NCBI GenBank assembly: GCA_021904315.1 | Contig: CM038919.1 | Location: 5,146,001-5,210,000 of the forward strand | Length of the DNA: 64,000 bases | DNA from: Sphagnum magellanicum | Lineage: Eukaryota; Streptophyta; Sphagnopsida; Sphagnales; Sphagnaceae | Direction of reading: 5' to 3' | Shown here: in pieces, positions 4,277-61,300 of the stretch | Numbering within the stretch: the first letter of the stretch is position 1 | How the letters are laid out: each line of letters starts with the position of its first letter | Made by a program: the position numbers and the translations under genes | Notes under the pieces: model-generated | The model's database searches: none | What the model saw: only the letters and a program-made list of their open reading frames with translations | Told to the model about the DNA's origin: nothing

Positions 4277-5356
4277 CTAAGGCTTCCGGCAGACTAAGAG
4301 GTGCATGGGGCTGAAGATGCCAGTCTCGCCTCCCCGGGTTAGATGCAATGCAGTCTTGAACAACATCTCATGCACATCTACCACGCCCTGGGGTGCAATA
4401 CCTAGAAAGGACAAAAGGGCAATCACCACATGGTTGCGGTAATACGACAGCCGACCCATCTTCAGTCTCTTCCACCAGGGATGAGCCGGGGGCAATGCCA
4501 AGTCTCTGTCCTGCAACACTTCGAATCCGGCTGCTTTGGCAATCTCTCCCACCTCCTTGTAACTCCGCAATCCCGGGAGGGCATCCCCGTGTTCAATGCC
4601 ATGGATGATTTCCACATGCTCCGCATTGTCGGCCCTAAACTGGGGAGTCGTCACCCACTCATAGGTTACGTACAGATGCCCCGGTTTCAACACACGGAAA
4701 ACCTCGGCGTACACGTCCTGTAGCACGGGCGCATGGCAAGTCGCTTCGATGGAGTAGGCACCGTCGAAGCTATTGTCTTCGAACGGCATGTTCATGAAGT
4801 CCCCGCACACCACTTCGCAGAGATGATCCAGACCCGCCTTCTTGTTATGGCTCCTCGCACGAGCCACCTGATAATCATTGATGGTGATTCCGGTGACATG
4901 AGACTGCGAATGCTCCGCAATTGCACGCATGGGTCCGCCCACTCCGCACCCGACGTCCACCACCCGCTGCCCTGGTTTCAGCTGCAATAGATCAGCCACC
5001 TTCTCCTCGTGCAACCGCGTCTCATCCCGGTGCGATTTCCCAGGCACGGCAGGCGAGAAATGGAAGCTCTGTCCCCAACCCCATTCATAAATATCCGTCA
5101 CCAGGTTATAGAAAGTGTCTACCAGATTAGGCACATTCCCAGGAGTTTCGATCTGCTTCGGCTTCTCGAAAAACGCCGCGTACTGATGATAGTGCGACTT
5201 AACCTGCTCCCTTGTCAGACTCCCACCACCCAGCTCCACGGCACGCTTCCCTTTCTGTTCGGCAGCACCCGCAATGCACAGCGCGTAGTAAAATCCGGCA
5301 GCTATCACGCCTGCAAGTCCCACCATGCCCCAACCAGCCACACTCCCAACTTCCAT
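4277..5356 (-). CDS. SMT2: 24-methylenesterol C-methyltransferase (SMT2 type)
   Basis: An intact single-exon gene of 359 residues ending in TAG. The enzyme transfers a methyl group from S-adenosylmethionine to C24(1) of 24-methylene sterols, the second side-chain alkylation that leads to 24-ethyl sterols such as sitosterol, at the ER membrane. From the ATG at 5356: a hydrophobic N-terminal anchor (about residues 5-28), then 'EQKGKRAVEL', the sterol-binding motif YEWGWG (90-95), SAM motif I around DVGCGVGGP (134-142), IEATCHAP (203-210), YEWVTT (232-237), and the C-terminal ending GGETGIFSPMH...CRKP. The anchor followed by the KGKRAV segment, and the lack of introns, fit SMT2 rather than SMT1 (cycloartenol methyltransferase). 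The frame is open upstream to 5440, but the only upstream start-like codon there is GTG, so the ATG at 5356 is chosen. All key motifs are present, so it is probably functional. Confidence 0.93.
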   Translation of the reverse strand: MEVGSVAGWGMVGLAGVIAAGFYYALCIAGAAEQKGKRAVELGGGSLTREQVKSHYHQYAAFFEKPKQIETPGNVPNLVDTFYNLVTDIYEWGWGQSFHFSPAVPGKSHRDETRLHEEKVADLLQLKPGQRVVDVGCGVGGPMRAIAEHSQSHVTGITINDYQVARARSHNKKAGLDHLCEVVCGDFMNMPFEDNSFDGAYSIEATCHAPVLQDVYAEVFRVLKPGHLYVTYEWVTTPQFRADNAEHVEIIHGIEHGDALPGLRSYKEVGEIAKAAGFEVLQDRDLALPPAHPWWKRLKMGRLSYYRNHVVIALLSFLGIAPQGVVDVHEMLFKTALHLTRGGETGIFSPMHLLVCRKP

Positions 5357-5830
5357 TCTTCCGTAACCGGGACTCCCACCTTCCCCGACACCAGCTTCTT
5401 TTCTCCTTGTCCTTCCTGCTCTTTCCTTGCAGAGCTTCACTAATATTTCATCCCCACCTCACGCATGATTCTCCCCCCACCCACCCGCGACGGTTTGCAA
5501 GCACTGCTTGCCACCAGGCATTTAAGCTCAAGCGCGCGCGAGAGTACGAGGACTAGGATCCTTCACACTTTGCTCCGCGAGACAGCGCCGCCTACAAGGA
5601 GGCGGAGTGGCAGGAGGGGGGGGGCCAAGCAAAAGCCCTACGATCGAAGCTAAGCTGCGGGAGGTCAAGACGAGAGCAGAGTGGGAGGCAACGCCTAGGC
5701 GGCAGGCGGCGAGCGGTGGAGGCAGAGATTAGGCTAGGCTGCCCGGCCTCTCCTAGGCTAGGCTTGGTCTAGGAGGACGCTGAGCGGTGAGCTGACAGCT
5801 TGTGCTCGGCGCAAGGCCCATGTCCGCCAT
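5357..5830 (-). promoter_or_regulatory. GC-rich 5' flank / 5' UTR and promoter of SMT2
   Basis: The stretch just upstream of the SMT2 ATG is clearly richer in G+C and CpG than the AT-rich DNA that begins near 5840. This fits a CpG-containing promoter and leader. No convincing TATA box was found and the transcription start is unknown. Function is inferred from position and composition only. Confidence 0.4.
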
Positions 5831-7979: not shown

Positions 7980-8006
7980 GGGGGGGGGGGGGGGGGGGGG
8001 GGGGGG
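7980..8006. repeat. Poly-G tract (27 G)
   Basis: An uninterrupted run of G. It may be a real G-tract or a place where the assembly length is unreliable. Confidence 0.95.
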
Positions 8007-16275: not shown

Positions 16276-16869
16276 GCGTGGGGGAGGGGGTCAAAGGCCT
16301 CACTCAGGCCAAAGCTTTTAACTGGCCAAATCTGATATTTGAATTTTTTTTTCCCTTTCCTTTCTTTCCCCCTTCTATTGAAAGTAGAAAATTTAGCAGA
16401 TTTGTCTTACTGGATTTTATACCGGAAACACATTACCAGATTTTGTATCATTGGATTTCCTTATTAAATTTCCTTACTGGATTTGTATGTTTATTTTTAA
16501 AACCAAATTTTTTTAGATTAGGTGAAGTGGCTATTCCACTGTTTCGATGTAGTTTGCTTTATAGTATTTAAGGTGCTCACTTTTTGAAGTAAAACAAGTG
16601 TGTTGTAATCAAAAGTTGATGAAGTTCTTGTGTATTTTTTTAATTCTGAAAGTTGTTTTTTCTAATTGTTGTTAAAAGTATTTTTTCATTGTAAGGTCTT
16701 TGAATTTGTATTTGCTTCGCATTTGTTTTTGTTGAATGTTTGTTTAATAAGTTGATAGGAAAATACTTTTAAGCTATTTGCATACCTATGTTGCAAAAAT
16801 AGATTTATTTTCTGCTCCTACATATTTTCACAACAAAACCTGGTAGTTCACCAAATGACGTTAACACCC

Positions 16870-17600
16870 TCCTTCCTAAAGTTTTTCTTTGCAAAAGACA
16901 ACAAATTGGCCAAATCACACATTTGATTTCCCCCCCTCTCCCCTCTTTCTCCCCCTTCTCTCCTAAAGTTTTTCATGCAAGAAAGGCTAAATTGGCCAAA
17001 TCAAACATCTAATTTTTTTCCCCTCCTTCTCTTCCCCCCTCCTTCCTAAGGGTTTTCTTTGCAATAAACAACAAATTGGCCAATCCACACATCTGATTTT
17101 TTTTCCCCTCCCTCCCTTCCTTCCTAAGGTTTTTCATGCAAGAAAGGCTAAATTGGCCAAATCAAACATCTGATTTTCTTTCCCTCCCTCTCTTTCTCCC
17201 CCCGCCCCCCTCCTTCCTAAGGTTTTTCTTTACAATAAACAGTGAATTGACCAAACCACACATCTAATTTTTTTCTCTCCCTCTCTTCCCCCCTTCCTTC
17301 CTAAGGATTTTCATGCAAGAAAGGCCAAGCTAGCCAAATCAACCATCTAATTGTTTTCCCCTCATTCTCTTTCCCCCCTCCTTCCGAAGGGTTTTCTTTG
17401 AAATAAACAACAAATTAGCCAAATCACACATCTGTTTTTTTTTTCGTCCCTTTCTTTCCCATCTCCTTCTTATGGTTTTTCTTTGCAAGAAAGGCCAAAT
17501 CAAACATCTAATTTTTCTCTCTTCCTTTCCCCCCCTTCCTTCCTCAGGTCTTTCTTTCTATGTAAAAAAGGTCACATCAACGCCAAAAAATAAATCAATT
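16870..17600. repeat. About 84-bp tandem repeat in alternating dimer form
   Basis: Nine units begin near 16882, 16967, 17051, 17130, 17220, 17306, 17390, 17475 and 17549. Each has a pyrimidine-rich part (CCTCCTTCCTAAGG) and an A-rich part with ATTGGCCAAATC. Two unit types alternate: type 1 has TTTTCTTTGCAATAAACAAC, type 2 has TTTTCATGCAAGAAAGGC. The higher-order unit is therefore about 168 bp. No reading frame is conserved. Confidence 0.75.
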
Positions 17601-19219: not shown

Positions 19220-20130
19220 TTAGCTAGGTAGGCTTAGTCAATGCTACTTACATACTTAATTAACCTATTATAACTAACCTACTAGCTTATTAATTAAGCC
19301 AAGGTTACCTACCTAACATAATTTGTAGTCTATTAAATAAAACTTAAGTAATTCTTACTTACCTAGATAGTTTAAGTTAGGTAACCAAGTTAAGCCTAAC
19401 AAGGTACGTTATTACCTAAAGGCTTATATAGTTATAGGCTAGTTAAATAGGTCAAATATATCTACCTTATCAACCTACTCACCTTCCTACCTACTTACCT
19501 ACCCATTCACCCTACTCTACTTACTTAAAACATACATATTTACCTTACTTACATACCTACCTTAATAATTAGCCAACCACCTACTTACCTATTTACCTAC
19601 CTACATACTTACCCACTTATACTTATTTATTTACCTTACCTAATTACCTACCCACCCACTATACCCTACTTAATTAAAACATGCCTATTTACCTTACTTA
19701 CATACCTACCTTAAACAATTAACTAGCCAACCTACCTACCTACCTACCTACCTACCTACTTACCTACCCACTCACCATACCTTACTTAGTTGAAACATAC
19801 CTATTTACCTTACTTATATACCTACCTTAAACAATTAACTAGCCAACCTAACTACCTACCTACTTAATCACCTTAATAATCTCCCTACATCCTTACCTCC
19901 TTACATACCCTAACAACTTACTTACATACCTTAACAACCTACCTACCTACCTACCTACTTAATCACCTTAATAATCTCCTTACATCCTTACCTCCTTACA
20001 TAACCTAACAACCTATTTACATACCTACCTACATACCTACCCACCTATACCTATTCACTTACCCTAGGTCTATTACATATCAACTTATACCTACCTACCT
20101 ACCTATATCTACCTTTCTAATTACATCCTA
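19220..20130. repeat. ACCT/TACC-rich satellite with higher-order repeat
   Basis: Mostly ACCTACCT / CTTACCTA words. Larger units recur: TACCTTACTTACATACCTAC at 19541, near-copies at 19690 and 19806, each of the last two followed by TTAAACAATTAACTAGCCAA. The higher-order period is about 115-150 bp. Confidence 0.8.
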
Positions 20131-28150: not shown

Positions 28151-28167
28151 GGTAGTTATTTTTTGCA

Positions 28168-28536
28168 ATGGCATCTATCCTTCCAGATGCCTTGTGTAAT
28201 CCTCAGATATTACCTCTTTTGCATGTAAAAAAACAACAACATAGAGATGATAAGCTTTGGGTTAGGGAAGAACAAAGGGCAAGATTATACAATTTGAAAT
28301 GCCTACATTGTCCTTGCACCAAATGCAAAGGACACTTTTTATATACAATTGGGAATGTGAGGGGGCATTTGATTCATAATGAAAGAGATCTTCGATTTAG
28401 AATTTGGATAGGTCCATGCACTAGAGACTTATTAGATGAAGAGTGGGAGGAGGAATTTAAAAGACCAATAAAACAACAAACCCAACTTCTGAATTCTGCT
28501 ATTGGTATGCAAGTTATGGTAGTTGATGCATTCTAG
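28168..28536 (+). pseudogene. Transposase-associated Cys/His module (CACTA N-terminus)
   Basis: An open frame of 122 residues with LKCLHCPCTKCKGHFLY, GNVRGHLIHNERDLRF and WIGPCTRDLLDEEW. The C-x2-C-x-C-x2-C pattern followed by V-x2-HL fits the plant transposase-associated domain (PF13963) that precedes Tnp2. The frame stops at TAG (28534-28536). An acidic region continues downstream in the same gene with further stops. Confidence 0.6.
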
Positions 28537-28686
28537 CAACTAGATGATCCTATCTCATTCGAAGACAAATTGGTGGATGTTGTGGTTGATGTTTTTAGGG
28601 TAGTTGATGGATTATAACAAGAAGCAAATGAGGGTGACAAAGATGGTAATGGAGAAGTTCCATTTGATAACAATGGACAACAATCA

Positions 28687-29945
28687 TTGAGAGATGAATC
28701 TTTTGAAAATGTCCAACAAGAGCACAATTTTGATCCAGTGGCTTTGGAGGATGCAATGAAGGAATTGTATGTAGGCTCCAAGTGTACAAAGTTGGTAGCA
28801 ACAATTCTTTTTATGAACCTTTGCATGGTACATGGAGTCAATAATAGATTTTTATGGCATCATTTATTTCTTAAACCTGATTGTTTGCCCACCAACTATT
28901 ATGCTGTAAAGGTTGACACAAAAGTTTAGATTAAATTATGAGAATATTCATGCATGTCCTAAAGGTTGTGTCTTTTTTCGAGGGGATCATAGAGACGATG
29001 TCAGTTGTCCAAAATGTGGGTCTCCTTGTTACAAGGATGTGGTAAACAAGGTATTGTTTATGAAAGTGCTTCAACATTTTCCTATAATCCCTAGACTTCA
29101 AAGGTTGTTTAAGACACCTATAGTGCTTAAGTTAATGTTTTGGCACTCACAAAATAGTAGTCTAGATGGCCTTGTTAAACACCCATGTGACTGAAAGGCT
29201 TGGAAACACATTTAGTAGAAATTCCCTAATTTTGCAATAGATCCACAAAATGTGCATCTTGGACTTGCTACTTATGGTGTCAACCCATACAAATTGATTC
29301 ATTCGACATGGTCAACATGGCCTAGATTATGTTGCTGAATTTCAATTTAACTCCTTGGTTGACAACTAAGAAATTTTTCATCATGTTGGCATTGTTGATT
29401 CTTGGAAGGAATTTGTCACATCTTCCAACTTCGATGTTTATTTACAACCATTGAAGAGCTAATGCAAATATGGACTAGAGTTCCAATGTACGATGTGCAA
29501 AAACCTTTGTGCTCCAAGTCATTTACATTGAAAGGAATGTTGTTTTGGACCATCCATGATTTTCCTAGGTATGGGACAGTTGCAAGAGTCACACACCAAG
29601 GACTTGTCGCATGTCCAATATGTGGGCCAAAGTTTAGGGGTGAACACTCAGTGGAGCTAGGTAAACAAACCTACACTGGAACATGCCGATTGTTGACAAA
29701 GGGACACCCATACATATTAGTGAGAATGGCTAATCATTTCAATAGGAAATTAGAAACCCACCTAAGACCCAAATTTGTCATAGTAAAAGAACAATTGACA
29801 CGAACTGCATAGTACTAGTTTTGGTTACAATCGAGCAACAAAGATGGTGGAGCCGGGGACCCTTTCATAGAACATGGTGTGAAGCATCGTAATGTGTTAA
29901 ATGATTTGCCATATCAACAAGTATGTTGTTCCTTTAAATGTGCTT
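28687..29945 (+). pseudogene. Tnp2 transposase core (PF02992)
   Basis: Blocks follow the usual Tnp2 order. 28687-28929 has a leader ending LPTNYYAVKVDTK. The 28913 block has YENIHACPKGCVFFRGDH, a CPKCGSPCYKDV zinc-binding pair and PIIPRLQRLFKTP, then HPCD followed at once by TGA (29192-29194) where 'GKAWKHF' is expected. A region with stops still reads 'NVHLGLATYGVNPYKL' (about 29250-29300). The 29402 block has VYLQP-like DVYLQPLKS-type sequence, TLKGMLFWTIHDFPRYG, HQGLVACPICG and LLTKGHPY. A remnant GVKHRNVLNDLPYQ ends near 29920. It once catalysed cut-and-paste transposition; several stops make it inactive. Confidence 0.75.
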
Positions 29946-30039
29946 ACATTGGGGAACATTGTGATGTCATGCTTGCCATTCTTTGAAATCAAAACCTATG
30001 TTGCTTAAGTTTGTGAGTGTCTAGATATGTGAATCACTA

Positions 30040-30270
30040 TATTGTTTTTGTATAGAAAACATGTCATTTGTGACATATGTTAGTCATATACAAGTCAATG
30101 TCAAGTTGGTAGTAAGGTTTGTGAACAGCCAAGACTCCGACAAAGGTAGATTTTAGTCATAGGCTAGTCAATTTGTAGTTGCCTTGTGTCTGTATGTGGC
30201 AGCCTTTAGTCATAGAAAGGTCAAATATATAATGACTGATACACAATAAAATTTAGACCAGAGGCTGCAT
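30040..30270 (+). repeat. Insert-borne repeat, copy 1
   Basis: It lies in the gap between the Tnp2 core and DUF4218. It shares TTAGTCATAGGCTAGTCAAT (about 30153) and other words with the gap at 31385-31540, in the same orientation. Confidence 0.45.
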
Positions 30271-30479
30271 TGCATTATTTTTTGTGCTAATTTTGGTTTA
30301 ATGGGAGATTAAAAAATGTATGGGTTGGTGAAAATAAACCTAGTTACCCTGAAAAAGAAGGTTGACCATGAAAAAAATGGGTGTTGTGATTGATGCAAGA
30401 TTTTTTAATTCAGTTCACAATAAATGTAATGCATTATAAAAAAAAATTTGCTAAAAATATTCTAAAAACAATGACAAAT

Positions 30480-31290
30480 GAAAAAGATAGTGTGAAAGTG
30501 AGACGTGATTTGCAATGTAGGGGTATTAAACCACATTTGTGGTTGATTACCATCAACCTTTGAAGAGATGGTAAGATGTTGAAACCAATAGCCCCATACG
30601 TTTTGATAGTGATCAAGTTTGACTCTTTTTCAATAACCATTGAGAATTTGAAAACACCTTCAAGACATTTATTTGCAATGGGGAAACACATTAAGAAAAA
30701 GAATTTTGGTAGTCTAAAGTCACATGGTTACCATATTTTGATGGAACAAATTTTGCTGCTAGCACTACGAGGATGTCTTGCTCCTAGACCTTGAATGGTG
30801 GTGATGAGGATTTCCAAAGTGTTAAGGAATATACGTAATAAGGTTTGGAATCCTTCTGAGATTGATTCATTCCGAGATGATGTTGTAGTTTCTTTAGCAT
30901 TGGTAGAGATGCATTTTCCACCATCTTTTTTTGACATTATGACACATTTGTTGTATCTAATGGATGAATTAGATTTGTGTGGACCCGTTTCCATTAGATG
31001 GATGTATCTAGTGGAAATATACATGAAAACCTTGAAAACCTATGTGTGTGATATGGTTAAACCTAAGGGATCCATGGTTGAGGGATATATTAAGGATGAG
31101 TGCCTCAGTTTCATAACTGAATACTTGCAAAGGTTTGAGGTTGTGTAGCGTCGAATATGGGATGCTGATGAAGAAGAGGGTGATGTTGGTGAGGTACTTG
31201 AAGGGGCTAGTGTGAAATTCTTTATGTCCCTAGCCCTACGCAATGCTCATGCCCACCAATATGTACTCACCAACATATCCTTAATGCCAC
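30480..31290 (+). pseudogene. DUF4218 module of the CACTA transposase (PF13960)
   Basis: It starts with a short piece reading VRRDLQCRGIKPHLW, which in intact elements follows the Tnp2 core. Then come GSLKSHGYHILMEQILLLAL, a short break, and a clean block (30795-31148) with EMHFPPSFFDIMTHLLYLM, LDLCGPVSIRWMYLVEIYM and GSMVEGYIKDECLSF. The order and motifs are diagnostic of DUF4218. The block ends at TAG (31146-31148), and a trace HAHQYVLTN continues to about 31285. Confidence 0.78.
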
Positions 31291-39246: not shown

Positions 39247-39272
39247 CCCCCCCCCCCCCCCCCCCCCCCCCC
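39247..39272. repeat. Poly-C tract (26 C)
   Basis: An uninterrupted run of C. Its flanks do not resemble those of the poly-G tract at 7980. Confidence 0.95.
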
Positions 39273-50150: not shown

Positions 50151-50764
50151 GTGCCAAAACTAACATAGAGTGATTTTATGCGATTCCATGTTTGATCCAC
50201 AATAAGATAAGGGCATGTGAGGCCGAGACATTGTTTGCTTGGTGACGAGTAGGAAAGATGGAATAGTAGAAGAGAAAGGTGAGAGCATGAAAAAGTGGTC
50301 GTGTCTTACGTTCCTTGTTCTCATAGGAACAATTCCTAAGCAAATGGGATATTATGTAGCTCCTATGAACTTTCCAATACTCAAAGAATCTGTCTCTACT
50401 ACTAAACTTTCCAATACTAGGAGGTATGCGCTTGCGTCCTTTCAGCGAGCAGCTCATGCGGCACACTTTTTCATGGCAGGTTGTCTGAATAAGGGATGAC
50501 ACACGACTTTGTGCATACTGGAAGAGCAAACTTCATTAGCCATCTGCATGAACGAGTTGCATTCATGATCTTCAGCAAGATTGATTTCAAGAATGCATAC
50601 AGTTTTGCAGTCTGATGCCTTCCAGGCAAGCTGCACAGCTTGTTGCATGTGTCACTTCTTTGCTGGTAATCATACTCTCCTTCATTGTGGCCAGCCATAT
50701 GGTTGAATATACTCACATCATCTGCTCAAACATGCCAACACCTCAAAAGAAGATTGATGTTAAC

Positions 50765-51400
50765 AACCAATAGAGGATGGTGAGGAGAACAGACGGAAAT
50801 GAAGAACCGTCGATGAAAATCTGGAGTAGTAAGTGGTGGCAATAAATTACCTTACAGCTGTAACCTGTAGATTTTGTATAGAATTAGTAGTTGCTAATTT
50901 TATACTTGTGAAACTACTAATTTTATACTTGTGAAGCTCGGGGGAGAGCACAAGAGGCAGGTAGGAAAGAGGAATAGGGCAGAGATAACAGGTTAGGAAG
51001 AAGGGAGAATAGGGGCGAGGCGGAAGAGAAGCTTGTTGTGAAGAGAGTTAGACCTTCTTGTGCTCGTGGTTGGGTGGAAAGACTACGGAGTTGCAAAGAT
51101 GTTTTATATGAGGCTTAAGCGCTTTGGTTGTGACTATTTTGTAATTGGTTGAAGTTGTGTGGGTGACGGTAAGAAGAGGAAGAGGCTAGATTGGTCATTG
51201 GGAGTTGATAAATAAAAAACCACTTAAGTGGTCTGTGATTTCTTTAAAAGGCCCCTTTGTCTGGGCAACCAGTCCACTAAAGGGGCTGGTTTAGGAACTT
51301 CCTTGTGAGCGGGTTTTCTACCTTCTCTCTGACGTATTTGGACAGTGAAATTTAGAGGAAGGTGAGAAGGGGTCAGAGGGGGCTTAATAATTGACAATAT
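50765..51400. other. Insert in copy A, absent from copy B
   Basis: Copy A homology is continuous up to about 50762 (AAGAAGATTGATG) and resumes near 51402 (TTGCCCTCAATGGCTACTGC), while copy B has no such sequence at 57815-57835. Inside is a short direct repeat, ACTAATTTTATACTTGTGAA twice (about 50894-50935). The identity of the insert is unknown. Confidence 0.5.
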
Positions 51401-51960
51401 TCTTGCCCTCAATGGCTACTGCCTCAACAAATATGGATGTTTTGTATTAGTGAAAAAGGGACATTCTGAGTTTGCCCTTAAGAGCTCTGGAGCTGACACT
51501 GGGTGGAATGATATGATGCAGCGATGGCTGAATTGACTCTTATGGGAAATGCATATAAGCAACAAAAAGTGTTACTGGAATCCACAACATAACATGAGAC
51601 CAAACACGCCTCAGGTGAGTACAACTGTGTCTTGGAACGTCCACTCCAAAACTATGTATGTCAAGAAGTCTACAGAACAAAACTGCAGGCCTTGGAGATG
51701 GTCCTGTGTATACTTGGTACCTGGACTAATGAATTTGCAGAGGCTGTAGGATTGTGTGCAATTGTAGACCTCTCTTTGCCAGAGTGGTCAGCAGGGTGTG
51801 AATTCTCCTGGAAATACCATAAACAGCAAAAATCACATTTGGAGCTGCAAGTGATGAGTCTTTGCTGCAGATCTGCAAGCTCTGCTGCAGCCTCCAGGCC
51901 AAGATTTTCTACATCATCACCACCATCACTTGAGGGCACTCTTCTCTTTCAAGAAGATTC

Positions 51961-52880
51961 GCGGCATGTCAAGCCTCGGTAAGGTTCTTCCTGTTGCATT
52001 GAATTAAACCACATGTTCCACCGCTTGTGTGGGCCCTCATCAATTCCTTTGAGTTTCATTCTTGGGAACGTATTCTCCAAGCAAGATACTTAACGTTACA
52101 GCACTATGCGATCGATATGCACAATGCTTAGTATCCATCATTTACGGCTAGGACTAATGGGGTATCTAATCCCATTTGCTCCCCTAGCTTTTGTCTCTCA
52201 GTGTTAGTGTCAACCTAGTAGAGTGCTTTTGTCGTTGGTGTTCTTTCCAATCTCTACAGATTTCATCGTTCCATCGAAAATTCCCTCTACCAGTTCAGTA
52301 GTTTCCATTGCCTATCCAGGGTTGACCCTTGGGATTTGACGGTGGACTTAATAAGCCACCTACAGACACTTTACACCCAATCATTTTGGATAACGTTTGC
52401 ATTTTTTGTCTTACCACAATTGCTAGCACAAAATTAGTTGATGCTTATTCTTCAAATATTGTCATTGCTTTTTTTTTGAGAAAAGGAATTTACAACCTGT
52501 GGGCCTTCTACCTCCACACGACATTGCTTTGTCAAGCTTTCGCCCATTGTAGAAAATTCCCCATTGTTGCTTCCTGTAGGAGTTTGGGCCATATCTTAGT
52601 CCCAGTGTGGTTGATCATCCTTTCAGACTAACTATTAATTGTCACCTTGGTAAGCCATTGCTTCACCAACTAACTAATCAGACACAATCCTCTCTTGGGG
52701 CAGATTCCTCCTTTTTCTCTTCAGCCTATGGGGTATTAGCAATTGTTTCTAGTTATGGTCCCCCTCCCAAGGGCAGGTTCTTACACATTACTCACCTATC
52801 CACCATTATACACCACTAGGATGCTTCCCGTTTGACTTGCATGTGTTAAACATGTTTGATTTTCAAGTTCATATTCAAAA
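51961..52880 (-). pseudogene. rrn16: Plastid 16S rRNA fragment (nuclear, 5' two-thirds)
   Basis: The plus strand shows the complement of plastid 16S. Landmarks are AATTCCTTTGAGTTTCATTC (about 52053), GGGGTATCTAATCCCATTTG (about 52160), AAAGGAATTTACAACCTGTG, AGGAGTTTGGGCCATATCTT and AGTCCCAGTGTGGTTGATCA. It ends near the 5' end of the molecule (CTTGCATGTGTTAAACATG, 52838-52856). The 3' third of 16S is missing at the 51961 end. Small deletions and many transitions mean that it cannot be functional rRNA. Confidence 0.93.
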
Positions 52881-53107
52881 TGGAAAAAACTGTCTAGTGA
52901 TTATGAAAGACTTTTCTACTTTTGCGAAGACTCTTTGAAAGGAAAACTATATGACTTACAATTGCTATGACATAACATCCTTTGATCCGTGGGGAAGAGG
53001 ATCAAGTTGGCCCTTGTGAACAACTTGGTGCATTATCTTTCTTCAACCCTTCAAGCACAATATGACAAGAGAAACAAGCCATGGACTGGCCCCCATATTA
53101 ATGTAAT

Positions 53108-53433
53108 GGGATGTTTTAATCTATTTTTTAACAATGAATTTAGATTCAAAGAAAGATTTTAAAATGTCTAAGGTTGGGTTAAGATGGTCCCGTAATGCTT
53201 TCTTTTATCTTCCCATTGAAGTTTTCTTCACAAAACTTACCACTAATAGGGAAAGGGAGAGGGAAAAAGCACACTTGGAGAACATAGTACAACAAAGAGT
53301 TGTATGCTATGTTCGGGAAGAATGAATTGTTCTTTTAAAAAAAAATCTATTGATTTTCTTCCAATTGAATAATAACATATGTGTGAAATTTACTTCACAA
53401 GTGAGGTATTTGGTTCAAGTCTAGGATAACCCA
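53108..53433 (+). pseudogene. trnI-GAU: Plastid trnI-GAU: intron 3' part and 3' exon
   Basis: The stretch CACACTTGGAGAACATAGTA...GAGTTGTATGCTATGTTCGG (53270-53320) is the conserved group II intron tail. It is followed by the 3' exon at about 53399-53433 with TGGTTCAAGTCTAGGATAAC, the T-arm and acceptor of tRNA-Ile. The 5' exon is absent and base changes disrupt the acceptor stem. Confidence 0.85.
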
Positions 53434-53502
53434 ACTATGCCAGTGAAAATCACAAAAAAAACATTTGATTTGTTCATGCATGTTTCACTCGACTTGGGTA
53501 TA

Positions 53503-53540
53503 GGGGATATAGTTTAGTTGGTAGAAAGTTGCCCTTGCAA
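53503..53540 (+). pseudogene. trnA-UGC: Plastid trnA-UGC 5' exon
   Basis: GGGGATATAGTTTAGTTGGT then TTGCCCTTGCAA; the anticodon TGC is at 53536-53538, and the exon is the usual 38 bases. The plastid group II intron follows directly (TTGGGTCGTTGC...). The 3' exon is missing. Confidence 0.88.
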
Positions 53541-53940
53541 TTGGGTCGTTGCACTTACGGGTTGGATGCCTAATTGTTTAGGTGGTAATGATAGTATTTT
53601 TTATTTAAACCAATGGCTAACGTTTCTTAAGAATGGGGAAGAGGATTGGAACATGCCACTGAAAAACTTTACTAATACAAAGATGGGTTGTCAAAACCAT
53701 AGAAAAAGTAGGATGGGTAGTTGGTTAAATCTGGTATGGATCGTACATGGGCAATAATTAGAGTTGACAGCTCTCCTAGGGTTACATCATCTAAAATCCT
53801 TGGGGAAGAGGATCAAGTTAGCCCTTGCAAACAACTTGGTGCATTATCTCTCTTCAACCGTTCAAGCATAATATAACAAGAGAAACAAGCCATGGACCGA
53901 CCCCATCATCTCCACTTCGTAGAAACTACAAGATCACCCC
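53541..53940 (+). pseudogene. Plastid trnA-UGC group II intron, 5' part
   Basis: Conserved intron text can be followed: GGTTGGATGCCTAATTGTTT, AACATGCCACTGAAAAACTT, GGTATGGATCGTACATGGGC, GGGGAAGAGGATCAAGTTAG, ACTACAAGATCACCCC. It stops abruptly at about 53940, where host sequence shared with copy B resumes. The segment 53801-53905 is repeated at 52990-53097. Confidence 0.88.
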
Positions 53941-55255
53941 GATGTTGACTAATATATCCAATTTTTCACTAGAAATTCCCTATTGAACGATTCTCCTCAA
54001 AGCTACTCCAATGCATGATGTCAGAGTTCATTTTTTTCATTCTCCTATGGGACAACCTTTTGGAATGCTTCCTTGAATGGTTGCAAAATAAGATCACAGG
54101 TCACCTGAAGACAAAGACATTGTAATTAGGTAATTTATGCAAAGGTTGTAGCATGCTAATTTTTGAATTGTGCCAGGATCGAATTTGCAAATTTGCACAA
54201 GTAGGAAATGTTACCCATGTTAAAGATAGGAAACACATGCAACTAACAAATAACTCCCTAACTTTCATGAAGACATTTTTAGTTTATGAACCCTTGAAAT
54301 TGCCTACAATGGAGAGATCTCACGATGCCATTGAAGAATGGGATGAGATGTTTCTTTTGGTGAATCTAGTACAACTCACTAAAGCCAAATGTGGGAGGTC
54401 ACACCTGACTATCTTCCAAAGCAAAATTCCTAAAGAAAAGTGTCATTAATATTGAAAGTGTAGTTGTCAACTTGGATCAGCTCATGTTCATCAGTCTCAA
54501 TCTTTTCCCTAAATTCTTGGGGGTCAAGATTAATGAGCTCTTTCCCAATATCAATTCCAACAAAACATCTAGAGAAGATGGTTGAGCTTAAGTGCTTCTT
54601 GATCAGAGTGAACTTGAATGCAATGCATGTAGTGTCAATGGGTGCCCGAATGAGAGAAGCCTTCAAGGTCTTTATCTCTATTGCCAATTCAGCTTCATGT
54701 CTTCCTGCATAAGGAATGCAAGCACAAATAAATTTCTAGTAGCATTGTGATATAGGGAGTGGAAAACTAACCTTGGATCAAGTCATATGAGTACCATGAT
54801 ATGAATGTCATCTAAACACCAATAGTGAACGACTTGAAGCATTGACCTTCTAATTTGCATGATTAGTGAAAGTGATCAAAGAAGCTAGCACTTTCATGCA
54901 CCACATGTGTGCATGTAGAATTGGTGGGCAAAAGAGATAGCAGCTCATGTAAATGATCTGAGTGATGAGTTTGCAAAGTCAATGACAATGGTATACAAAC
55001 AATGTATATTGCCTTGTGGAACAATTTAATCATTGATCAACTTCACCTTAGACATGGGAATGATCCAGTTTCTAGTTGATTTCCATTTTGAGGATGTTGA
55101 TAAATCATGACTGAATATCCATCCAGTCCTGCCACAATGTGGAGTACTGCATTACATTAGGCAGTGTTCTCTGGGGGAATACTCTTATGGTGATGAGCTT
55201 ACTTGGTACAACCATATCATTGCCACCATACATTTTGTGCAGATAGTTGCCTATA

Positions 55256-55916: not shown

Positions 55917-56545
55917 TCAGATGAGTGCTGTAACCCATAGCCTCAATGTTTTCGCAAGATGCTCGAATACCAACGTTAGCTCCACCTGATTCACAGTAAC
56001 CACCGAGAATTTACCACCGCCAGCGTCAGCCATGTCCTTCAAACGTTTGTCGGTTGGCTCCGAACCAAAATTGATAGTCAAGAATTGCAACCTCGAATTC
56101 GCTTCCCTCATCTCATTAACAACAACCACAGGGTCTCTGGGATCGTTATCCTCGCCATCAATCAGAAAGATTACAATTGGGTCCACTCTCTTTCGTGAAA
56201 ATAACTTCTATCGTTCATAGCGAAGTACTGTAAGAATTTTTCACAGCATTGTAATATCCTGTGCCTCCACCTGCTCCTGGGTAAGAAGTGTATCGATCGA
56301 ATCTTCTTTCATGTCCTTTGCATTCTTATGCAGCTTTAGCCCCTTCATTGATCATAACTATTGAGACAGACTCGGGTGGATGATTTTCTTGCAGTCGGGT
56401 TCTCATAAAGTGAAAAACTACCTCGTAGAAACATCCTAATCAGTCGTTGTGAACAGAACTGAAATTAACCATCGTCGGTTGTACATCAGTACTGGCCATT
56501 GAACCAGATCTATCAATCACAAAGATAAAGTGGACATTCCTAATT
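55917..56545 (-). other. VWA domain of copy B
   Basis: VHFIFVIDRSGSMASTDVQ at about 56536-56480 carries an intact metal-ion site motif (DxSxS). After stops and a frame change, 56186-55917 reads IVIFLIDGEDNDPRDPVV, FLTINFGSEPTDKRLKDMAD and AGGGKFSVVTV. The Asp in DGEDN fits the third metal-site region. The frame ends at TGA (55917-55919), the likely C-terminus. VWA domains bind ligands through a divalent metal ion. Confidence 0.75.
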
Positions 56546-59500
56546 TTGTCTTCATGCTGGCACGTGAAGTGATGGCCATCATGAGTGATATGTTTCCAGC
56601 TGCAGGAGTGAGGGCTTGGAGTTCCTAGATTGGGTCATGCCACACTTTTTCTGTGCAGTATGAAATTTTCTCTGCTAAAGTCTTTGAAAGGGAACTGGAA
56701 TCTCCTTTGCTCAAAGACTTGTGGTCCCTGTGTGCACATTGGTAGTTGCAAATAGAGAACATATTTTGCTTTGCGTTGCTGCGAGGGTCCTTGATTTGAT
56801 GAGCTTCCAGTAAGCAAAATGAGTGGCCTCATCTTTTGGGGAATCGAAATCTGGGACATACTCGCGAGTTTCATGCCTTACACCCTGCATAAAAGAACAA
56901 TATTCTGATTGTGGCAAGATGTCCACGGTGTCCTCTATCACGATTTTGGTTGATTCATTGTCCTTTTCGTCCCCTATTTTCATTTGGGATACTGATTAGC
57001 AGTAGATGACATGACCTCGCAATGCCCTGCAATGCATTGCACACATCTCTACTGCCCCAGACTCGCCCCATTTGTAAGAACTTGCGCTCACAAATGTCAA
57101 TATCCTCAGATTCAGACACAAAATGGACACCTCTCATGTTCCCATGTGTTGTCTGATGATGCCCTAGGTGGCCCATTGGAAGTTCCCAATTGTGCTGCAC
57201 ATTCTCAGTTTGGCAGTGTGAGTGTGCCCCTTCATGATGCTCTTTGAATTCAGGAATTGGAATGTTGCACATCTTTCTCACAGGAGTCTGCTCAGAGACA
57301 CTCTCAAACTCAAAGACCATCCTTTGTCCATTGAACGTGCTGGTTGTCTTCTTCACAAGTTCAGTCTGCACCTCACGTTGCCTTCAGCTTCACACTCCTC
57401 GGAGCATTGGTGCACACTACTGCAGAAATGATTTGGTGTTGGTATGTCCAAGTTGTGAAAGTGATTTACAGATGTACACATTCAGTTGCATCCTTTCATG
57501 AGCAGATCATGGGACACATTTTTTCATGGCAGGTGTGCACCTCATACATGTGTGCATAAGGGATGATACATGGGTTTCTGCATTTTGGAAGAGAGCATTC
57601 TTCTTTACCTGTGTGTTCCAAGGAGTTGCATTTGTGATCTTCAGAATGATTCATTTGAGTGTGCATACAGTTTTGCAGTTTGATGCCTTCCCAGACAAGC
57701 GGCACTCCCTCCTGCGTGTGTGGCTTCTTAGCCAGCAATCATGCTCCCCTTCATGGCAACATGTACTCACAGCATCTGCTCACACATATCATGGTTCACC
57801 ACCTCAGAAGAAGATTGACACTAGTCTTGCACTTTAGGGTTACTACCTCAGGAAATATGGATAATTTCTATTAGCCAAAAAGGAATTTTCTCAACTTGCC
57901 CTGAAGAACTCTGGAGCTGGCACTATGGGTAAGTCTGTGGTTACATGATCTGCAGTGACTGTCATGGGAAACATATAAGCAACAGCTCTTGGGACTGGAA
58001 TCCACAAGGCGTCCATGAGACCTAACATACCTCACCAATATGGTTGTTTCCTGGAACCACTCCAAAATTATGTATGTTGAAGTCTTACAGACCAAAACTG
58101 TGGGCCTTGTAGATGGTGCTGTTGAGATTTGGTACCTGGATTAATGATGCTCTTGTCAGCAATGCAGAAACTGCAGGATTGTGTGCATTTGTGGCTCCCC
58201 TTGCAAGAGTGGTCACCAGAGTGTGATTTCTCTTCGACTCACCTTAAACAACACACATCACATTTGCAGCTGCAGAGGGTAAGTCTTTGTTTCATACGTG
58301 CAAGCTGTGCTGTAGCCTCCAGGCCAAGATTTTGTACATCACCAATACCATCAATGTCTATTGTGTTTGCCAATATCCAATCCTTCACTCAACATTCCCT
58401 CCTTATGAGCACTGCTCCTAAATACTTCTCCAATGCATGATGCCAAAGCTCATCCTTTCCCTTCTCCTGTGGCACAACCTCTTGGAATGCTTCCCTGAGT
58501 GGTTGTAAAATAGACTCATAGGTCACCTGAAGACATGCAGAAATTACAGTTAAGTAATCCATGCAGAGGTTGTAGTTAGCATGTAGCTGTAAATTGCACT
58601 AGGATTCGAGGAATTTGCTTGAGTTTGCACAAGTAGGAAATTTTGTCTGTGTCAAGTACAGGGAAAAAACATGCAACTAACAGATTTCTCTAGCTTCATT
58701 CATGAGATCAATTTCAGTTTACATCCTGGAAATTGCCAACAATGGAGGGATCTCATGGCATGGCACTGGGAATATGAGACGTTGCTATTAATGAATCTAC
58801 TATGTACAGGTCACTGCAGTGGGATGTGGGAGGCAACACCTTAGTATCTTGAGGAGCAAGATGTAGAGAAATGTCACTGATATCAAAATTGTAGTTGTCA
58901 ACTTGGATCAGTTCATTTGCATCAGGCACGACCTTTTCTTGGGAGTAAAGATCAACAAGCTCTTTCCCAACATCAACTCCAGTGAGACATCTAGAGAGGA
59001 TGGCTGAGCTTAAGTGCTCCTTGATCAGATTGAGCTTGAGCACAATGCGCTTAGTGTCAATAGGTGCCCAATCCATTACACTAATTTTGGCCATCTGTAG
59101 CTTGAGGTCCCTGGTGAAGCTCCTTCCATTGGAATGGGAATCATTCAAGGAATTGACAAAGTTTGCCAGATCAGCAATATTTTCCTACACAAGGAACACA
59201 ACCACAAATAAAATCTTTAACAACATCACAAACTAGTGAGCCTAAAACTAATCTTGGATCAAGTTGTACATGACTAATGTAAATGCCTTCAAGACAGAAA
59301 TAGTGAACACCTTAAACTTCAGATCCTGTTTAAGTTCATGATTAGTGGAGGTGATGATCAAAGGAAGCATTTTCATGCTACATGTGTCCATACAGAATTG
59401 CTGGACAAAAGTGAGAGTCACTCATCTAAATTGTCAGAGTGATCTGAGTTTGAAAAGTCAAGGATGTAATGGTTGACAACAATTTAAGAAAGCACATAAC

Positions 59501-60058
59501 ATAGTGAAATGAAGTCACTGATCAACTTTGTCTCTTACACATGTCAATGATGCAGTTTCTTGTTGACTTCCATTCTGAGGATGTTGATAAATTGAACAAG
59601 TGAATATCTATGAGTGCTGTCATAATGTGGAGCCAACATTAGGCATTTTTTTCTAGGGTGATAGTCCCTTGACAATGAGCTTACTTGATACTCTGGCTAT
59701 TGAAAGTGGGGTAGTGACACAACTAGAACTTGATCCCCATACATTTTGTGTAGAAAGTTGCCCATAGATTTGTTGCACATGTAGCAAATCTTCTTTTCAA
59801 ACTCCTCTTCAGTTCATCTTTGTCTGCATCATCCACATCCTTCAGATCTATGCAGAAGACACCCTTGTATTGGTTTTTGTCCTCCTTCACCAAGCCCACC
59901 CTGTTCTGAAAGTGCTCAAACACAGCTTCTGTGTCTTTGTCAAGATGAAAATCATGTGCCAAGAGAAAACAATTGAATATTTCACTCTCCATTGTTATTT
60001 AACATATAGAGACACAACAATTCCAAATCAAAATTGAAAGTAGAGACTATGTTTCTAG

Positions 60059-60475
60059 TCAGCACATTGTTAAAACTGCTGTGGTGTTCAGCTCACCAAG
60101 TTTAGAACAACCATGGTCCTCAGTAGTTGGCACTAAAGATACACATGATGCACACAACCTCATGAGTGGGGGTAGTAAGATTTTTCTGATTGTGCAAAGG
60201 TGGTGAATTATGTAAAGTTTGATTGTGAGGTCACTAGCCTTCTTATTGAAGCTGGTAATATCACTGAAGGCAGCATTGAGGATCAACAGAAGCATGTCCT
60301 GACTGCATTCAAAGCTCCCTAACCCTTCAAAGTCCAGTAACACATACAGACAATCACTTGTGAAGCACACTGCCATCCAGACACCATTGCTGCAATGCCC
60401 ACCTGCCATATCCAGCAGCAAGCCACTCAAGTGATTCAGCAGGTGAGACTTTCTGCTTCTCTGTTTTCCCATGGA
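60059..60475 (-). other. G domain of copy B (very-large-GTPase-like), P-loop damaged
   Basis: Reads SSMGKQRSRKSHLLNHLSGL, LLDMAGGHCSNGVWMAV and LYVLLDFEGLGSFE. The G1 loop should be GxxxxGK(S/T). Here the Gly before Lys-Ser is Arg, so nucleotide binding is probably lost, while the G3 motif DFEG is kept. After FNKK (about 60226) the next expected residues DFHLDKD appear only at about 59950, across some 275 bases without clear GT/AG borders. Confidence 0.6.
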
Positions 60476-61300
60476 GGATATTGCTATTACATCTCCAGTT
60501 CAACTCCCTGGTACTGTTTCATAGAGTCCAAATCAGAGCAGGTTGGCAAGTGACACGGTGTCCCAGTAGTTGAGGTCAGAGGAGACGCGAAGTCCTTCAA
60601 CAAGGGGCAAAGGTGTGTTGTTTTCTGCCCTGGCAATTTGTATGGGAACTAGGCAAACAACATGCCACATCCAATCCGCCATGCCAATTGCTGGCTGAGA
60701 ATCTGTCATGCAAGGATTTTGGAGTAAGGATTCTTCAAGAGTCTGCACATGGAAGTGTATCTCCAAGTCATGGAAGTCTTTGTCCTTGTCTCTCTCCAGT
60801 TTCTTGAGAGATGATTCCAAGAGTCATCTGCACCTGTCTCCAAGATCCTTGTCGATCACACTGCTGGATGTTCTCCATAGAAGGTGAAAGGAGAGATTAT
60901 GGCACTTGTCCTCATTGCTAACTTGGAATGCAGGGCTAATGGCATATTTATCAAAGATGTGATGCACATAGCCCATCTTGGGAAGGGATGAGTTGTCTGT
61001 GTTCGAAGGTTTTACATAGTGAGCTTGGGTATCTATAACTTTGTGGACTTTGCAAGACTCTGATGCTGAGGTTATCTCTAGCACTCAAGAAAAGATTTCC
61101 CTGGGTTCTGAAGAATCAGAGAAAACAAGGTGCATTTGTGACCCGAAGTTCACCACAGTTGCCTCCAAACTGTTGATGCTTGTGGCCCAAAATTCATGCT
61201 CTATTGTCTTCACATGTGACATCCTGTCATCAAGCACTAAGACATCTTGCTGAACAGCAGCCCCAGTTTCTTCCTTCCTGTCAGATCCTGTGCATGCATC

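Follow-up and report, generated by a model that had tools for sequence, protein, structure and literature searches.

How a stretch of plastid-like DNA came to lie within one of two neighbouring and related sequences of Sphagnum magellanicum, and whether it arrived there before or after those sequences were duplicated, is the question raised by the window described here, which is the whole stretch of 64,000 nucleotides that was analysed. The transfer of plastid DNA that gives rise to NUPTs is common in plants, and the reading that we favour, at a probability of about 0.9, is that of a methylated complex NUPT that was caught by end-joining repair in one of two gene relics. The two copies of the host sequence, the insert and its empty counterpart are laid out as follows.

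50432-55209, minus strand: copy A, apparently a gene relic, from collinear blastn matches to copy B, with the strand taken from exon-like open stretches
57486-59691, minus strand: copy B, without plastid DNA, from blastn against copy A
51929-53940, no strand assigned: the whole plastid-derived insert, read as a complex NUPT, 2012 bases, from junction letters and plastid matches
58353-58354, no strand assigned: the point in copy B where the insert is missing, CCATCA/ATGT, from a fine alignment of copies A and B

A blastn self-comparison of the whole window aligns the two copies in the same order throughout, namely A 50432-50757 with B 57486-57818 (70.9%), A 51390-51928 with B 57814-58353 (74.4%, E 1.8e-92), A 53954-54647 with B 58373-59069 (73.9%, E 1.9e-117) and A 54681-55209 with B 59163-59691 (70.3%), and a further collinear match of 30 bases (90%) takes copy A across 55226-55255. 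Collinear matches of 70-74% flank a single gap in copy B, which bears out the alignment on both sides of the insert that had been described in an earlier, sequence-only reading of this DNA, and copy A is interrupted twice, once by the plastid insert and once by 632 additional bases at 50758-51389. The same reading had spoken of a duplicated gene; the duplicated copies stand, but gene relic seems the better term in view of the stop codons and the codon-position counts. The exon-like piece beside the insertion site contains a stop in copy A where copy B is open (TAG vs CAG), and copy B in turn contains a stop where copy A is open. Across three exon-like pieces, with codon frames taken from the open stretches of copy B, the copies differ at 44/163 first, 29/164 second and 28/163 third codon positions; the third-position excess that was looked for in these pieces is absent, giving no sign of constraint since the duplication. 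To judge by their sequence, both copies look like gene relics. The insertion site in copy B sits within a short open stretch (58388-58248, minus strand), and the insert therefore probably struck former coding sequence. Outside the aligned part of copy B, and on the same strand, the window presents a weak similarity to URGCP-like GTPases at 60062-60499 (Pfam, 18.9 bits vs a cut-off of 55) and another weak one to VWA domains at 55920-56207 (Pfam, 22.4 bits vs a cut-off of 23.8).

The 632 bases at 50758-51389 are present in copy A and absent from copy B, and carry ATTGA near each edge, a possible target site duplication; they are perhaps a transposable element. They show short inverted matches inside themselves on self-comparison, and have no second copy within the window, where other matches are of 23 bases or fewer (E at least 0.42). 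Elsewhere, the window holds a sterol methyltransferase open frame of 393 codons at 4280-5458 on the minus strand (Pfam Sterol_MT_C and Methyltransf_11), which we take to be SMT2-like and which, like the CHG decay of the insert, is in keeping with a land plant; DNA transposon remnants at 28156-31145 on the plus strand (Pfam Transpos_assoc, below its cut-off, Transposase_21 and DUF4218), presumably of CACTA type; degenerate tandem repeat arrays at 16867-17500 (periods 77-170) and 19488-20047 (periods up to 149 bases); and a run of 27 G at 7980-8006 and of 26 C at 39247-39272 that, together with a handful of adjoining bases, make up an inverted repeat with widely separated arms.

By blastn the gap in copy B falls between 58353 and 58373, and the fine alignment narrows it to 58353/58354. 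On the left, the last bases common to both copies are CCATCA (A 51923-51928, B 58348-58353), while on the right the nuclear sequence seems to resume with ATGT (A 53942, B 58354), following one unplaced G at 53941 that comes directly after the insert. Just past this ATGT, copy A is 7 bases shorter, net, than copy B, and since the ATGT match is short, the target may have lost as many as about 20 bases. The insert is bounded by nuclear DNA on each side, both flanks being homologous to copy B by blastn. In copy B itself, the sole match to the two plastid references (angiosperm-type rrn16 and trnI-trnA) is 18 bases long (E 2.3), in agreement with the earlier description of this copy as lacking plastid DNA.

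At the left outer joint, CCATCA passes directly into 16S sequence, with the rrn16 reference aligning from 51932 and, by eye, from the C at 51929. The 30 bases at 51930-51959 that had been proposed as filler at this junction are instead plastid 16S, as the reference gene aligns across them. A loose alignment of the rrn16 reference can also be carried a short way into the left nuclear flank, and the Rfam match overshoots 29 bases into that flank in one search and stops at 52080 in the whole-window run, so that Rfam does not set the left edge. At the right outer joint, the trnA intron (ATCACCCC) gives way to nuclear sequence. The outer joints look blunt and an inner joint shows CCCC, with a base-level certainty that is limited by decay and by the approximate references. 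The target site duplication expected of a transposable element was not found at the insert, where the outside bases CCATCA and GATGTT do not match each other.

The insert was compared with angiosperm-type rrn16 and trnI-trnA references, which are approximate and may differ from the plastome of the donor. Its parts are listed here, where the gene names within 53089-53940 (trnI and trnA exons, introns and spacer) are presumptive.

51929-52854, minus strand: plastid rrn16, matching the reference gene from about position 983 back to 44, 81% over 51932-52854
52855-52983, no strand assigned: 129 internal bases, which in local tests match the plastid references no more closely than shuffled sequence does
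52984-53093, plus strand: first copy of the trnA-UGC intron piece, with 83.5% identity to the reference intron over 52984-53074
53089-53940, plus strand: trnI intron 3' part, trnI exon 2, spacer, trnA exon 1 and trnA intron 5' part, collinear
53090-53093, plus strand: CCCC microhomology at the inner joint, common to the trnA-intron and trnI-intron ends as judged against the references
53278-53359, plus strand: group II intron domain V-VI remnant, RF00029, 33.9 bits vs a gathering score of 40, E 2.2e-4 in a 2.1-kb search

Across the whole window a single Rfam match exceeds its gathering score, that of SSU_rRNA_bacteria (minus strand, 52080-52892, E 2.2e-133), and under laxer filters, with 51900-54000 alone, this model (RF00177) reaches 549 bits (E 4.4e-173) over 51900-52900, again on the minus strand. 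As the Rfam 16S model covers bacteria, it cannot on its own point to plastids; the plastid origin that the sequence-only reading had put forward is supported by this 16S match in combination with the matches to the rrn16 and trnI-trnA references and with the group II intron remnant, which we take to be that of the trnI intron. The plus-strand sequence at 53149-53940 is 77% identical to the trnI-trnA reference and lengthens leftward to GCCCCC at 53089-53094 (none of 500 shuffles did as well), and the resemblance between the two trnA-intron pieces (52985-53093 vs 53796-53904, 90.8%) carries the first of them to 53093. The rrn16 piece perhaps runs on to its 5' end near 52900, a weak case in which, for the last 43 bases of the gene, 49 of 2000 shuffles were as good in an anchored test and 253 of 500 in a local one; the 129 internal bases may hold the 16S 5' end with its leader, DNA from elsewhere in an organelle genome, or genuine filler. 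As extended, the three plastid pieces span about 1.88 kb of the insert and account for all but these 129 bases.

Within the insert, reversed rrn16 is followed by the trnA-intron piece and then by the stretch from trnI intron to trnA intron. The usual plastome order is rrn16-trnI-trnA, all in one direction. Set against this order, a 16S part on the minus strand, a trnI-trnA part on the plus strand and a trnA-intron stretch that occurs twice make up the arrangement of a complex NUPT. The reversal, the repeated trnA-intron piece and the 129 internal bases had escaped the sequence-only reading. ARAGORN detected no tRNA gene anywhere in the window, as would be expected of trnI and trnA pieces that are split by introns and decayed. 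A plasmid collection searched with 53100-53950 only gave no match, and exact-pattern scans of viral contigs and genome contigs gave 0 matches. A phage collection yielded 24 matching records, and query coverage among the 20 listed reached at most 42% (67% identity), the listed matches being annotated as 16S rRNA or carrying no annotation.

The decay of the insert is strongly one-sided. Relative to the rrn16 reference, the 16S part has undergone 125 C>T/G>A changes vs 8 reverse transitions, with 14 transversions, over 915 sites, and the sequence at 53149-53940 shows 109 such changes vs 14 reverse transitions relative to the trnI-trnA reference, so that the excess of C/G to T/A transitions known from NUPTs is seen in both parts. 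Deamination-type change affects 44/120 CG (37%), 47/111 CHG (42%) and 34/273 CHH (12.5%) sites in the 16S part; 29/70 CG, 36/67 CHG and 55/282 CHH sites in the trnI-trnA part; and 3/6 CG, 2/5 CHG and 5/34 CHH sites in the 91 bases of the short trnA-intron copy. CHG change exceeds CHH change in both the 16S part (p 7e-10, Fisher) and the trnI-trnA part (p 6e-8). When the flanks are scored with copy B as the reference, CHG differences amount to 83/178 in the 16S and trnI-trnA parts together vs 32/147 in the flanks (p 3e-6), the flank counts mixing both directions of change because copy B is not the ancestor of copy A. No such excess over the flanks is found for CHH (89/555 vs 93/668, p 0.33) or CG (73/190 vs 6/16), and the contrast between insert and flanks therefore rests on CHG. 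Methylation of CG and CHG sites in plant nuclei would leave such a trace, from which we infer that the insert was methylated at these sites.

The raw identity of the insert to the plastid references (84% and 80% in its two parts, vs 78% between copies A and B) was discarded as a measure of age since C-to-T change dominates it, and transversions were used for timing for the same reason. These number 14/915 in the 16S part and 196/2014 in the A/B pair, so that by transversions the 16S part has diverged 0.29 times as far as half the A/B distance (site bootstrap 0.15-0.47), which would date the insertion to about 0.3 of the age of the duplication. With the trnI-trnA part alone the ratio is 0.93 (0.64-1.28), which is not decisive and which we read as an upper limit, probably inflated by donor differences, since the donor introns would differ from the reference ones; both parts pooled give 0.59 (0.41-0.80). 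Changes between A and T alone divide in a like manner, at 3/410 A/T sites in the 16S part, 9/414 in the trnI-trnA part and 46/1179 in the A/B pair, and for the 16S part gaps lead to a similar result, numbering 5 in its 915 sites vs 54 in 2009 sites of the pooled A/B alignment. The best reading of these data is that duplication came first and insertion later, the order that had been claimed at the outset, and it finds its support mainly in the empty site of copy B and in the 16S ratio.

The reverse order, whereby the insertion would predate the duplication and would then have been lost exactly from copy B, is compatible with the ratio and limits of the trnI-trnA part and with an insert-plastid identity that barely exceeds the identity of the two copies. 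It is nevertheless very improbable, considering that the target in copy B is contiguous and lacks plastid matches beyond the 18 bases noted above, that the 16S ratio lies well below unity even at its upper bootstrap limit, and that neither end joining nor slippage is expected to give an exact loss. The chance that plastid reads were joined to nuclear DNA by misassembly is smaller still and close to negligible: the identity of the insert to the plastid references is only about 77-84%, and its one-sided, context-specific C-to-T decay and the gaps in its 16S part are unlike live plastid DNA, which speaks, as far as letters alone can tell, for the true insertion assumed by the sequence-only reading. 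Plastid DNA may otherwise have travelled by way of the mitochondrial genome (an MTPT), or the 129-base stretch may be mitochondrial DNA, as its failure to match either plastid reference above shuffles would allow; however, nothing in the sequence demands a mitochondrial route, and we consider it improbable.

A variant of the main explanation, which we regard as a tentative possibility at somewhat less than even odds, holds that the pieces were not joined as separate fragments but arose by template switching on one plastid rRNA-operon template during repair, or by later rearrangement of a collinear insert in the nucleus; it is compatible with the main reading. The three assigned pieces are neighbours in the usual plastome order, and the second jump is a backward one with CCCC common to both ends, yet this clustering is partly built in, because only the rrn16 and trnI-trnA references were compared, and the 129 bases at 52855-52983 match neither above shuffles in local tests. 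The two trnA-intron copies have, over 91 bases, 8 deamination-type differences in common, where independent decay would give 2.9 (P 0.005), and 7 private ones, where it would give about 15. This excess of common decay fits a duplication after insertion, or donor differences; the common changes may be donor states, and 3 further common differences that are not of the deamination type indicate that the donor differed from the reference, so the signal is only a hint. A more specific proposal, that of backward template switching on a single rRNA-operon molecule together with CG and CHG methylation with an edge at the junctions, appears rather unlikely. If true, the paralogous empty site would serve as an internal clock for the decay of captured plastid DNA against that of its surroundings.

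The preferred reading, a complex NUPT caught by end joining, would entail the local duplication of a large gene to give copies A and B, both now relics, and a later double-strand break between the CCATCA and the ATGT of copy A. End joining would have closed the break with the capture of plastid rRNA-operon pieces in the wrong order and orientation, after which the insert would have been methylated at CG and CHG and have decayed by deamination, at CHG to an extent exceeding its flanks. Repair by end joining, already suggested by the sequence-only reading, appears to be the best mechanism given the form of the junctions, although the filler that was to mark the left joint does not survive. The layout of the locus, the empty site, the 16S identity and the spectrum of decay are observed directly; the break, its repair by end joining, the methylation and the succession of events are inferred from them.

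To our knowledge, the pre-insertion site of a NUPT is usually absent from the same assembly. The present locus differs from described complex NUPTs in that the empty site is visible in a neighbouring paralogous copy, and a limited search, by title and start of abstract, turned up no published work that appears to use paralogous empty sites of NUPTs; NUPTs in grapevine duplications have been counted (PMC3179966). NUPTs are reported to be captured at double-strand breaks by end joining, with joints that are blunt or have 1-7 bases in common (PMC6215612, PMC7037861, PMC3989485), complex inserts of several pieces with changed orientation are described (PMC6215612, PMC3989485), and the C/G to T/A bias of NUPTs is tied to methylation (PMC6376042). 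The insert in copy A shares with these complex NUPTs the presence of several plastid pieces of altered order and orientation at one nuclear place, and its joints look similar to theirs, which are blunt or have 1-7 bases in common, in that the outer ones seem blunt and an inner one seems to carry CCCC (PMC6215612, PMC3989485), while it is too decayed for the 90% identity cut-off of the latter study (PMC3989485). The strong C/G to T/A excess and the use of transversions for relative age likewise follow what is reported of NUPT decay (PMC6376042, PMC7037861). The ratio of reverse to forward transitions, 8/125 = 0.06 in the 16S part and 14/109 = 0.13 at 53149-53940, compares with 0.26 in young A. 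thaliana NUPTs as given there (PMC6376042, PMC7037861), a comparison that is indicative only, as method and reference differ. The kind of event is well known and involves no new mechanism, and the locus is instead a useful calibration case, in which a nearby paralogue with an empty site makes junctions, target change and relative age readable from one sequence, and in which the flanking DNA of the two copies provides a matched control for the decay of the insert.
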